A stretch of DNA of 64,000 nucleotides, from assembly GCA_945883675.1 (NCBI GenBank), contig CAMCYA010000002.1, forward strand, positions 1 through 64,000, read 5' to 3'. The translations under genes and the position numbers were made by a program. This DNA is from Bifidobacterium breve (GTDB taxonomy: Bacteria > Actinomycetota > Actinomycetes > Nanopelagicales > Nanopelagicaceae). A model generated the notes under the pieces. That model was given only the letters and a program-made list of their open reading frames with translations, was not told where the DNA came from and ran no database searches. The stretch's first letter is position 1, and each line of letters begins with the position of its first letter. This document shows positions 38,414-42,460 of the stretch, piece after piece.

Positions 38414-39558
38414 TGGAAAACGTATTTGATCTGCCTTCCGAATATAAGGAGTTGCGTACTAGCGTGCGCGCCCTGGCAGAAAAAGAGATTGCACCATATG
38501 CGCAGGCAGTTGATGAAGAGCATCGTTTTCCAGTTGAAGCAAAAAATGCGCTAACTAAGAACGGTCTATTTGCTGCTCATGTGCCTACCGAATATGGCGG
38601 CGATGGAGCAGATGCACTTGCAACAGTTTTAATTATTGAAGAAGTTGCTCGAGTCTGTGGATCTTCTTCTTTGATCCCTGCAGTAAACAAATTAGGATCT
38701 GTTCCGTTGTTACTTGGGGGTAATGAAGATCAGAAAAAGCGTTGGCTGCCACAGTTAGTAAAAGGTTCTGGATTTTCTTACTGTCTCTCTGAATCAGAGG
38801 CAGGATCAGATGCAGCTGCACTTCGAACCAAAGTTGAACGATCTGCAGATGGTTGGGTTCTAAACGGAAGTAAGAAGTGGATTACAAATGCAGGGGAGTC
38901 AGATTTTTACTCTGTAATCGCACAAGGAGATTCATCACTTGGCACAAAGGGAATCACAGCATTTATTGTAGAAAAATCAGATCCTGGAGTTTCATTTGGC
39001 GCACCTGAGAAAAAAATGGGAATGCGCGGATCACCAACTCGTGAAGTTTATTTTGACAATGTACAACTCAGTGATGACCGCCGGATCAGTGAAGTTGGAA
39101 AAGGTTTTGCTTTAGCGATGGACACCCTTGACCACACGCGCATAACAATTGCCGCACAGGCAATTGGATTGGCTCAAGGTGCCTTCGATGTTGCAACAAA
39201 GTATGCACATGAGCGCCAACAGTTTGGTAAGCCAATTTTTGATTTTCAAGCTATTCAATTTATGTTGGCCGATATGGCTATGAACATTGAATCAGCACGC
39301 CTTCTTACATATTCAGCAGCAGTCAAAAGCGAGAATAATGAGAAGGATCTTCGATTCTTCTCTGCTGCAAGCAAGTGTCTTGCAAGTGATGTGGCAATGA
39401 AAGTCACACAAGATGCGATTCAAGTTTTAGGTGGCTATGGGTATGTAAGCGATTATCCAGTCGAGCGAATGATGCGCGATACAAAATTGACTCAGATATA
39501 TGAAGGAACCAATCAAATTCAACGCGTTGTAATGGCTCGCAATTTACCTAACGGTTAA
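38413..39558 (+). CDS. Acyl-CoA dehydrogenase
   Basis: CLSESEAGSDAAALRTKVER; ARLLTYSAA; VLGGYGYVSDYPVERMMRDTKLTQIYEGTNQIQR. Confidence 0.94.
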   Translation: MENVFDLPSEYKELRTSVRALAEKEIAPYAQAVDEEHRFPVEAKNALTKNGLFAAHVPTEYGGDGADALATVLIIEEVARVCGSSSLIPAVNKLGSVPLLLGGNEDQKKRWLPQLVKGSGFSYCLSESEAGSDAAALRTKVERSADGWVLNGSKKWITNAGESDFYSVIAQGDSSLGTKGITAFIVEKSDPGVSFGAPEKKMGMRGSPTREVYFDNVQLSDDRRISEVGKGFALAMDTLDHTRITIAAQAIGLAQGAFDVATKYAHERQQFGKPIFDFQAIQFMLADMAMNIESARLLTYSAAVKSENNEKDLRFFSAASKCLASDVAMKVTQDAIQVLGGYGYVSDYPVERMMRDTKLTQIYEGTNQIQRVVMARNLPNG

Positions 39559-40090
39559 AGCGAATAAGAACCGATGGCGTTGCCGCGGCATCTAATGCAA
39601 CATCATGTGGTTCATGCGGAAGCTCTTCACTTGAAAGTTCGCCCGGATAAACCAAACCAATTTTCCACGCGTTAAGGGCCGGCAAAGAGCGGTCGTAATA
39701 CCCTCCACCTTGACCAAGCCGGTAGCCAGACTGATCAACTCTTAATGCAGGAACGACGATCGCTGTGATCACGGACAAGTCTGAGATAGCTGGACCAGTT
39801 GGTTCAAAGATCTTTTTCTTTGCACGAAGTGAACTCTGCTCACCATTCCAGTCGACCCATTCAAGAAGATCTCCATTAATCCTAGGCAAATAAAGTTTTT
39901 TCCCACTTCTCAAAAATGCCTGATTAATTTCTTCAGTACTTGGCTCAGTTTCATAGGAAACATAAGAAGCGATTCCTGTTGCAGATTGAATCTCTGGTGC
40001 CTTCAAAATCACATTAAAGTTTGATGGTATGAATTTTTGAGATCGATCGCGGCGTGCCCGCTCCCTAATCTCCTGTTTGTCAACGCCCAT
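39548..40090 (-). CDS. 5-formyltetrahydrofolate cyclo-ligase
   Basis: GQGGGYYDRSLPALNAWKIGLVYPGEL. Confidence 0.9.
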   Translation of the reverse strand: MGVDKQEIRERARRDRSQKFIPSNFNVILKAPEIQSATGIASYVSYETEPSTEEINQAFLRSGKKLYLPRINGDLLEWVDWNGEQSSLRAKKKIFEPTGPAISDLSVITAIVVPALRVDQSGYRLGQGGGYYDRSLPALNAWKIGLVYPGELSSEELPHEPHDVALDAAATPSVLIRFNR

Positions 40091-40144
40091 TTAAATCTCC
40101 CATGAAATCCCAAAGATAAAACTTAATAGAAGTAGGGTTCGATT

Positions 40145-41059
40145 ATGCCAGAACACACTCGGGTGGATGAGTTTCTTACTTCACTCCTTTCCATTTGTAA
40201 GCCTCTTGAGCCATTTGAGATGTCCCTACTTGATGCTCACGGAGCAACGTTGTCTGAAGATATTTATGCCGGTGAACGTCTAGTTTTACGATCAGGCACA
40301 CGAATACGCTCTACTCAAATTGGTTTGGCAGCATCTATTGGACGCGATCATTTACCAACTAGACCACATCCCCGAGTTGTTGTTCTTTCAGCGGGCCCAG
40401 ATCTTGTTGAACCGGGACAGCCACTCAAAGATTCCAGCGATGAATACGAAACTAATTCCTGGTTGCTAACAACTGCTGTTCGCGAAGTCGGAGCTGTTGC
40501 TTATCGCGTGCATTCAATTCCAGATACTGAAGAAGAGTTACAGAAAGTAATTGAAGATCAATTAGTCCGTGCAGATTTGATAATTATTTCTGGAGAGCGC
40601 AATGATGATTCATTTGATCTCATCACACGTACTCTTTCTTCTCTTGGAACAATTACCACAGTTGATATGGCGATAGAGGCAAGCGGGAGACACAATTTTG
40701 GAACTATCGGTCCAGATCAAATACCGGTAGTTACACTTCCGGGCGATCCAATCTCTGCATACATTTCATTTGAACTTTTTGTTCGGCCCATGATCCGTAC
40801 AATGCTAGGTGCTGCAACAATCCACCGACCTTCAGTTAAAGCTTCGCTAGAAAAACCTATTGAATCTGCAGAAGGTATGCGTTCTTACATTCGCGCTGTT
40901 TTGGCAGAAGATGGAAAGTCAGTAATGCCTTTAGAATCTCAAGATGAACAGTCAACCCTTTCTGATGCAAATGCATTTATTGCAATTTCTGAGTCGGATA
41001 CATCACTTAAAACTGGTGAGCGTGTAAACGTTGTAGTTCTAGAGCGACGTTATATTTAG
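40145..41059 (+). CDS. glp: Shortened MoeA/gephyrin-like protein (Glp-like)
   Basis: PGDPISAYISFELFVRPMIRTMLGA and LRSGTRIRSTQIGLAASIG are MoeA-like; 304 aa, lacks the PPFDxSAMDGYA region; syntenic with RimJ and SepX/GlpR-like genes. Confidence 0.8.
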   Translation: MPEHTRVDEFLTSLLSICKPLEPFEMSLLDAHGATLSEDIYAGERLVLRSGTRIRSTQIGLAASIGRDHLPTRPHPRVVVLSAGPDLVEPGQPLKDSSDEYETNSWLLTTAVREVGAVAYRVHSIPDTEEELQKVIEDQLVRADLIIISGERNDDSFDLITRTLSSLGTITTVDMAIEASGRHNFGTIGPDQIPVVTLPGDPISAYISFELFVRPMIRTMLGAATIHRPSVKASLEKPIESAEGMRSYIRAVLAEDGKSVMPLESQDEQSTLSDANAFIAISESDTSLKTGERVNVVVLERRYI

Positions 41060-41065
41060 GTAAAT

Positions 41066-41632
41066 ATGAATAGAGCTTGGCCAATTGACATAAAAAATAA
41101 TGGGTTAACACTGCGGCCCTTACGATTTCGAGATATGAAGAGATGGAATCGTGTCAGAGCTGAAAATAGAGATTGGTTGTCTCCATGGGAGGCAACTATT
41201 CCCAGTATCAGCCAAGAAAGCGTTGCAGAACTTCCTACTTTTTTTGGAATGGTGCGATCCCTTCAACATGAAGCCCGCAATGGTCGATCTTTTTCTTTTG
41301 CAGTATGGAAAGGGCCAGATTTAATCGGGCAGATTTCTTTGGGTGGTGTCATTTATGGTGCGATGCGTGGAGGCCACATTGGATATTGGATTGATCGCAA
41401 TTTCGCCAATCGTGGATACACAACGATGGCCGTAGAAATGCTTACTGAATATGCCTTTAAAGAGTTAAATCTGCATCGAATAGAAATTAATTTACGTCCA
41501 GAAAACGCAGCTTCCCGAAAAGTAGCTGAAAAAGCTGGCTATATTCTTGAGGGGGAAAGACCTCGATATTTACATATCGATGGTCAATGGCGAGATCACA
41601 TAGTTTTTGTCAAGGAAAATCCTGGGCTTTAG
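41066..41632 (+). CDS. GNAT N-acetyltransferase, RimJ/RimL-like
   Basis: LRPLRFRDMKRWNRVRAENRDWLSPWE; GYWIDRNFANRGYTTMAVEML; HRIEINLRPENAASRKVAEKAGY. Confidence 0.92.
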   Translation: MNRAWPIDIKNNGLTLRPLRFRDMKRWNRVRAENRDWLSPWEATIPSISQESVAELPTFFGMVRSLQHEARNGRSFSFAVWKGPDLIGQISLGGVIYGAMRGGHIGYWIDRNFANRGYTTMAVEMLTEYAFKELNLHRIEINLRPENAASRKVAEKAGYILEGERPRYLHIDGQWRDHIVFVKENPGL

Positions 41633-41683
41633 TAGTGCTTAAATCCCCGAAAAACATGGGGGGCTTCCTTAAGATTTACCATT

Positions 41684-42460
41684 ATGGCTTCGGGTTTAAT
41701 CTATCTAGCAATCATCGGCATGTGGGTTGCCTATTTTGCGCCCCGTTGGATTCACGACCGTAATGAATTCTCAGGAAAATCAGTTGAACAATTTAAATCT
41801 GCACTTCGAGTTGTTGCAGCACAATCACCAGGTGGTGCAAATACTTCCGGAGCAATTCACATTGACTTAGATCGTGAAGCAAAAGTTCGTCAATTACTTT
41901 TGCGCAGAAGGATCATCTTTATCATTATTACGTTTTCAATTGTTACAACAATTGTTGGAGGCTTCATGAAGACCATGCCATTTCTATATGCACTCGTTCC
42001 ACTTTCTGCAATGTTGGTATATGTTGCAAATGTGCGACGGCACGTAATCGCTGATCAGTTATACAAGCGTCGCGTGACACAGTTGCAACGTCGTAGTTCT
42101 GGTGTATCTGCAACAAACTTGGCAGAAGTTGTTCAACCAAAAGCAAGTACCGAACACTGGATACCTTTGTCAGAGCGCGAACTAAAAGGTGTGGTAATTG
42201 TGCCTCGTGGCTCTGCTACATATCAAAATGTTTGGGAGCCAACAGAAGTTCCTGTTCCAACATATGTAAATGCCCCTAAAGCTGTACAGTCCAAACGAGT
42301 CATCGATCTGACAACTCCTGGCCAGTGGTCAGAAGAGCAAGAACTACTTGAAAGACAGGCGTTAGCTGCGGCTTCACCATCTCGTGATGAGATCTTTGAT
42401 CAACAGTTAGCAGATGAAGCAGTTGAACGGTTGAATCAATCTCGCGCTGCTAACGAATAA
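41684..42460 (+). CDS. GlpR/SepX-like actinobacterial membrane protein
   Basis: N-terminal TM YLAIIGMWVAYFAPRWIHDRNEF, two further TMs, cytosolic tail; gene order glp-rimJ-this. Confidence 0.75.
   Translation: MASGLIYLAIIGMWVAYFAPRWIHDRNEFSGKSVEQFKSALRVVAAQSPGGANTSGAIHIDLDREAKVRQLLLRRRIIFIIITFSIVTTIVGGFMKTMPFLYALVPLSAMLVYVANVRRHVIADQLYKRRVTQLQRRSSGVSATNLAEVVQPKASTEHWIPLSERELKGVVIVPRGSATYQNVWEPTEVPVPTYVNAPKAVQSKRVIDLTTPGQWSEEQELLERQALAAASPSRDEIFDQQLADEAVERLNQSRAANE

Follow-up and report, generated by a model that had tools for sequence, protein, structure and literature searches.

The locus considered here raises the question of what function remains for a MoeA-like protein that is only 304 residues long and is encoded close to a SepX/GlpR-like membrane protein. 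The analyzed stretch of 64,000 nt (the window) belongs to the genome of a streamlined actinobacterium of the genus Ca. Planktophila (Nanopelagicaceae), available as a 1.19-Mb draft in 62 contigs with a completeness of 84.5%. Within the region 39548-42460, a minus-strand gene for 5-formyltetrahydrofolate (5-FTHF) cyclo-ligase is followed by plus-strand genes for the MoeA-like protein, a RimJ-like protein, and a protein with three transmembrane (TM) helices (Table 1). Gene order and profile matches agree with the preliminary description of this DNA, which had recognized the actinobacterial glp-rimJ-glpR(sepX) locus and had remarked on the absence of its usual neighbor galU; at the locus, which was the part examined for this gene, galU does not adjoin glp. 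Promoter and terminator scans yielded no more sites than were obtained with shuffled sequence.

Table 1. Positions of the features at the glp locus (window coordinates) and at the yggT-ileS sites (coordinates of the respective loci).
Feature	Position	Strand	Evidence
5-FTHF cyclo-ligase, divergent neighbor marking the conserved locus	39548..40090	-	ORF and profile matches
glp, MoeA-like protein of the Glp clade (304 aa), reduced to domains I, III, and IV	40145..41059	+	Pfam, NCBIfam, alignment, tree, AlphaFold2, Foldseek
Deletion junction in glp, codons 37-43	40253..40273	+	Alignments with C. glutamicum Glp and family sequences
rimJ-like GNAT acetyltransferase, 188 aa	41066..41632	+	ORF and profile matches; invariably flanked by glp and glpR
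glpR/sepX-like membrane protein, 258 aa	41684..42460	+	NCBIfam NF050099, hydropathy, structure model
Conserved linear motif of the GlpR tail, residues 184-215, putative Glp-docking segment	42233..42328	+	Tail alignments
yggT-ileS sites without wag31	L204 5218-5504 (G000 contig C10); L206 7328-7613; L205 5287-5580		

The 304-aa protein contains the Pfam domains MoCF_biosynth (residues 97-218) and MoeA_C (residues 232-299), and of MoeA_N only the last 28 profile positions (133-160) were matched, with a score under the cut-off. Its best NCBIfam model is NF045515 (Glp_gephyrin; 271.7 bits, below the curated cut-off of 475). In the comparison with Glp of Corynebacterium glutamicum (8bve), the match begins at query residue 38, which corresponds to Glp residue 147, and in the multiple alignment the window Glp jumps from C. 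glutamicum residue 39 to residue 151. Since this gap spans domain II of the C. glutamicum protein (residues 46-145; PMC10522489), the missing piece is domain II together with a few flanking residues. About 105-110 residues are missing at the junction, where the N-terminal half of domain I (DAHGATLS) is joined directly to its C-terminal half (DIYAGERLVL), and the four-domain architecture I-IV is thus reduced to three domains. As judged by eye in the alignment, hinge 2 (PTRPHPR) is preserved in nearly all sequences, and the hinge 1 region is preserved as PLxPF/PLxxF.

The identical junction is present in all 14 aligned short sequences, which were spread over genera, and in 56 further loci, so it can be attributed neither to chance nor to a sequencing error. 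Misassembly of, or an artificial frameshift in, a normal MoeA of 400 aa, a reading invited by the fragmentation and incompleteness of the draft, is refuted because the same architecture recurs in independent MAGs, in a single-cell genome, and in complete genomes (e.g., Ca. Planktophila versatilis NZ_CP016774.1), and its probability is practically nil.

The AlphaFold2 model of the short Glp, built with 57 family sequences, has a pLDDT of 91.3 and a pTM of 0.89. In the Foldseek comparison with PDB structures, the best E-values were obtained for C. glutamicum Glp (8bve/8bvf; TM-score 0.81-0.82 by query and 0.63-0.64 by target), and the TM-score was slightly higher for the E. coli MoeA structures (0.87 vs. 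0.82). The mean identity within the family decreases from 0.86 in domain I to 0.80 in domain III and 0.63 in domain IV, which is the least conserved.

Both MoeA motifs of domain II, PPFDxSAMDGYA and T-G-A, are absent from the short Glp, and the motifs of domain III are altered in the window protein, with SGERNDDSFD in place of SGGVSxGxYD, SAGPDLV in place of STGDELV, and LPGDP in place of LPGNP. The known molybdotransferases (E. coli MoeA, Cnx1E, and the E domain of gephyrin) share the domain I/III/IV fold with the short Glp, but differ from it in carrying domain II, which contains MDG and T-G-A motifs, as well as SGGVS and unaltered GDELV and PGNP motifs. The window Glp cannot plausibly be a molybdotransferase. 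Profile searches of the window's genome, complete to the extent given above, found no MoaC, MoeA_N, MoCoBD, or molybdoenzyme, and neither MoaC nor MoeA_N was found in ten genomes of this genus that are assembled as one contig with a completeness of 99-100% (G001-G005, G009, G010, G012-G014), an absence from profile searches not being equivalent to the absence of a very diverged protein. The sole PF00384 match in the window's genome, suspected to be a molybdoenzyme, was rejected as such, being NuoG followed by NuoH. These results uphold the part of the preliminary description that concerns the enzyme: the Pfam and alignment data show the skipped PPFDxSAMDGYA segment with its surrounding domain in a protein of just 304 aa and the SGERNDDSFD replacement, as it had reported, and together with the missing cofactor genes and molybdoenzymes they support its view that molybdenum insertion is probably impossible. 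The opposite case, a complete molybdenum pathway with this protein as its only MoeA, was looked for and not found.

Molybdenum cofactor (Moco) genes are unevenly distributed among the 201 genomes of the order, with MoaC in 61, MoeA_N in 64, and both in 60 of them; by a hand tally, most of the genomes with Moco genes also carry a long PF00384 protein or a MoCoBD_1 protein. Short-Glp genomes that possess Moco genes have a separate MoeA, and the short Glp is conserved whether or not these genes are present. Domain II of MoeA carries part of the molybdenum site, so a cell without the cofactor could drop this domain and keep a division function. In one genome (G007) that also has a short Glp, a Moco cluster (L103, contig C2, 180000-196000) comprises formate dehydrogenase, modA, modB, moaA, moaE, mogA, moaC, MoeA, and mobA; its MoeA is diverged (TGGTADG in place of SGGVSxG) and belongs to a group whose branch in the tree is distant from that of the Glps.

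Glp query matches were obtained in 194 of the 201 genomes, including 107 of the 108 good ones; one good genome (G098) was matched via a MoeA paralogue only, and at least 106/108 good genomes carry Glp. The short form, with a stable length of about 300 residues, occurs in all examined genera except two basal ones, g8 and g15, in which Glp has 404-405 aa. In the tree, where C. glutamicum Glp forms a long branch, the short forms are monophyletic (100/100), are sister to the full-length g8/g15 Glps of the same family, and fall within the Glp clade, separately from the family's MoeA paralogues (100/100). The phylogeny indicates a single loss of domain II in the common ancestor of most Nanopelagicaceae. 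Of the 80 named loci, 69 have an intact cyclo-ligase/glp/rimJ/glpR block, and the others are truncated by contig ends. Glp is under strong purifying selection (dN/dS 0.03-0.09) and is more conserved than its three neighbors in all but the closest comparisons. A decaying MoeA relic on its way out of the genome might be suggested by genome streamlining (1.2 Mb), the loss of domain II and the Moco genes, and the degraded catalytic motifs; the distribution and the selective constraint refute this reading, as the frame is open in nearly all of the 201 genomes across genera and is constrained both in sequence and in length, and we regard it as exceedingly improbable.

The high conservation of domain III, including the altered segment SGE-x(2)-D-x-SFD that replaces SGGVSxGxYD, could also be explained by binding of a small molecule or nucleotide in this MogA-like fold, in a role unrelated to cell division. 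Such a role is improbable, as glp is constantly paired with glpR and rimJ and has no metabolic operon neighbor once moaC and moaB are lost.

The product of glpR is best matched by the NCBIfam model NF050099 (SepX_GlpR_2; 98.9 bits, below the curated cut-off of 150). Hydropathy and the structure model reveal three long hydrophobic helices and two disordered cytoplasmic regions, as required for SepX/GlpR proteins, with which it also shares the N-terminal SGxIYxxIxxxW start and the position after rimJ (PMC10522489, PMC8748795). Its first disordered region is much shorter than in C. glutamicum GlpR (~50 vs. ~190 residues), and no Wag31 was found for it to bind. The C-terminal tail, modeled with low confidence, is probably disordered, and contains the motif W-x-P-x(3)-P-x-P-T-Y-x(4)-K-A-x(4)-R-x-I-D-L-T-x-P-G-x-W, the first and second halves of which occur, with invariant columns, in 70 and 68 of the 73 family tails, respectively. 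The motif, which is recognizable in other families of the class, is the leading candidate for the segment at which Glp docks. Its IDLTxPGxW part resembles the FtsZ peptide IDIPDF, with different spacing.

The C-terminus of FtsZ, (D/E)xxD(I/V)PDF, is kept in all 15 genomes in which ftsZ was found (EDEIDIPDFMK in the window's genome). The C. glutamicum FtsZ-loop residues M361 and Y369 are replaced in the window Glp by A and a gap, respectively; in the alignment, neither these residues nor L343 and L370 are conserved, and the hairpin is shortened. FtsZ binding by the short Glp may therefore have been lost or be of a different kind, as far as can be judged from the alignment. Since the contact residues are not conserved and conservation is lower in domain IV than in domains I and III, a serious rival explanation is that Glp keeps its GlpR-binding role only and makes no contact with FtsZ, serving as a membrane-receptor scaffold via GlpR, perhaps with RimJ or other partners. 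The high conservation of the GlpR tail motif would also fit this explanation, which we nonetheless consider unlikely: M361 was found in none of the seven aligned full-length Glps outside Corynebacterium, so that its loss says little, and the FtsZ peptide is intact, although SepF and other proteins also need this peptide.

DivIVA/Wag31 (PF05103) was detected by profile search in none of the 22 Nanopelagicaceae genomes vs. 16 of the 18 other genomes of the class. In the window's genome, G004, and g8, sepF and yggT come after ftsZ, and yggT then abuts the convergent ileS with no wag31 in between, so the gene is absent from its customary site in the dcw cluster. GlpR of Corynebacterium binds Wag31 (PMC10522489); with no Wag31 detected, the GlpR-Wag31 branch of polar growth cannot operate here as described for that genus, and the link to polar growth drawn in the preliminary description does not hold for this family. 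The region near ileS and lspA also encodes a protein that combines a TraR/DksA-like zinc-finger C-terminus with a long Lys/Ala-rich histone-like N-terminal tail (L204 1013-1816, L206 3136-3948).

On this evidence, we consider it fairly probable that the short Glp is a non-enzymatic scaffold that has lost the molybdenum domain, is tethered by GlpR, and provides a link to FtsZ at the septum without the Wag31 branch. We infer that it binds both FtsZ and GlpR. The protein would dimerize via its remaining domains, GlpR would hold the cytoplasmic Glp at the membrane, perhaps through the conserved tail motif, and Glp would link GlpR to the septal FtsZ ring, the whole scaffold acting without the polar-growth branch known from Corynebacterium. 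That Glp and GlpR are conserved in genomes without detected Wag31 argues for a core role in septation, beyond a switch to polar growth.

The short Glp is a variant of the known Glp-GlpR system. With C. glutamicum Glp (Cgl0883; 8bve/8bvf; NF045515; PMC10522489) it shares the clade, the domain I/III/IV fold, hinge 2, the rimJ-glpR synteny, and the degraded catalytic motifs, whereas the C. glutamicum protein has domain II and the FtsZ hairpin with M361/Y369 and acts in a cell with Wag31; the short Glp lacks domain II and these two residues, and Wag31 was not found in its family. By analogy, the proposed arrangement resembles that of gephyrin and the glycine receptor, in which a MoeA-derived scaffold, a membrane-embedded receptor, and a tubulin-like filament come together; gephyrin differs in that it has kept enzyme activity, contains a MogA domain, and has a different peptide-binding site. 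We found no report of a Glp without domain II or of Moco genes in Nanopelagicales in the open-access literature. The natural deletion separates the MoeA-derived enzyme part from the GlpR-associated part and offers a minimal scaffold (~300 residues) for structural studies and binding assays.

The locus from which the short form would have arisen is preserved in G035 and G060 (g8) and in G249, G219, G326, and G201, which represent four other families of the class. It consists of the cyclo-ligase gene on the minus strand, galU, full-length glp, moaC, moaB, rimJ, and glpR; G134 (g15) has the same order as far as its contig reaches, the contig ending in moaC. As this arrangement is found in basal genera and in other families, most of the family has lost galU, moaC, moaB, and domain II at this locus. 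The single loss of domain II was accompanied by loss of the Moco section of galU-glp/moeA-moaC-moaB-rimJ-glpR. Neither a small genome nor the loss of a neighboring moaC removes domain II by itself, since G231, from a small-genome lineage (family f5; L248 6699-11142), has a full-length Glp with degraded catalytic motifs at a locus that contains galU, rimJ, and glpR and in which moaC and moaB were not found; the sequence examined from G328 did not include the locus.

The full-length Glps of the ancestral loci possess the FDNS/WDNS-MDG, T-G-A, and (S/T)GGVS motifs. In each of these genomes but G201, no other MoeA_N protein was found. Such motif-intact proteins are encoded between galU and moaC-moaB-rimJ-glpR at L094 (5009-9435), L099 (5258-10038), L100, and L101. 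Judging from their sequences, the single MoeA_N Glps are candidate bifunctional MoeA/Glp proteins. According to a published analysis, bacteria with Glp carry two or more copies of MoeA, and Glp has lost its enzymatic role (PMC11733289), statements that these apparently single-copy, motif-intact Glps beside moaC-moaB do not fit. They suggest a testable bifunctional ancestor. One possible, still tentative scenario, to which we give somewhat less credence than to the scaffold role of the short Glp, is that the ancestral actinobacterial Glp was, like animal gephyrin, a true moonlighting protein, serving both as the only molybdotransferase of the cell and as a division scaffold, and that the Nanopelagicaceae cut the molybdenum half (domain II, moaC, and moaB) but retained the scaffolding half, which would still function in cells without Wag31. 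If so, this family would represent a natural separation of the two functions of Glp. At the g8 loci, the RimJ-like ORF (L094 8226-8612, L095 4569-4955) encodes only 128 aa from a listed start codon, compared with ~190 aa elsewhere, so that either translation begins at a rare codon or part of the N-terminus has been lost.
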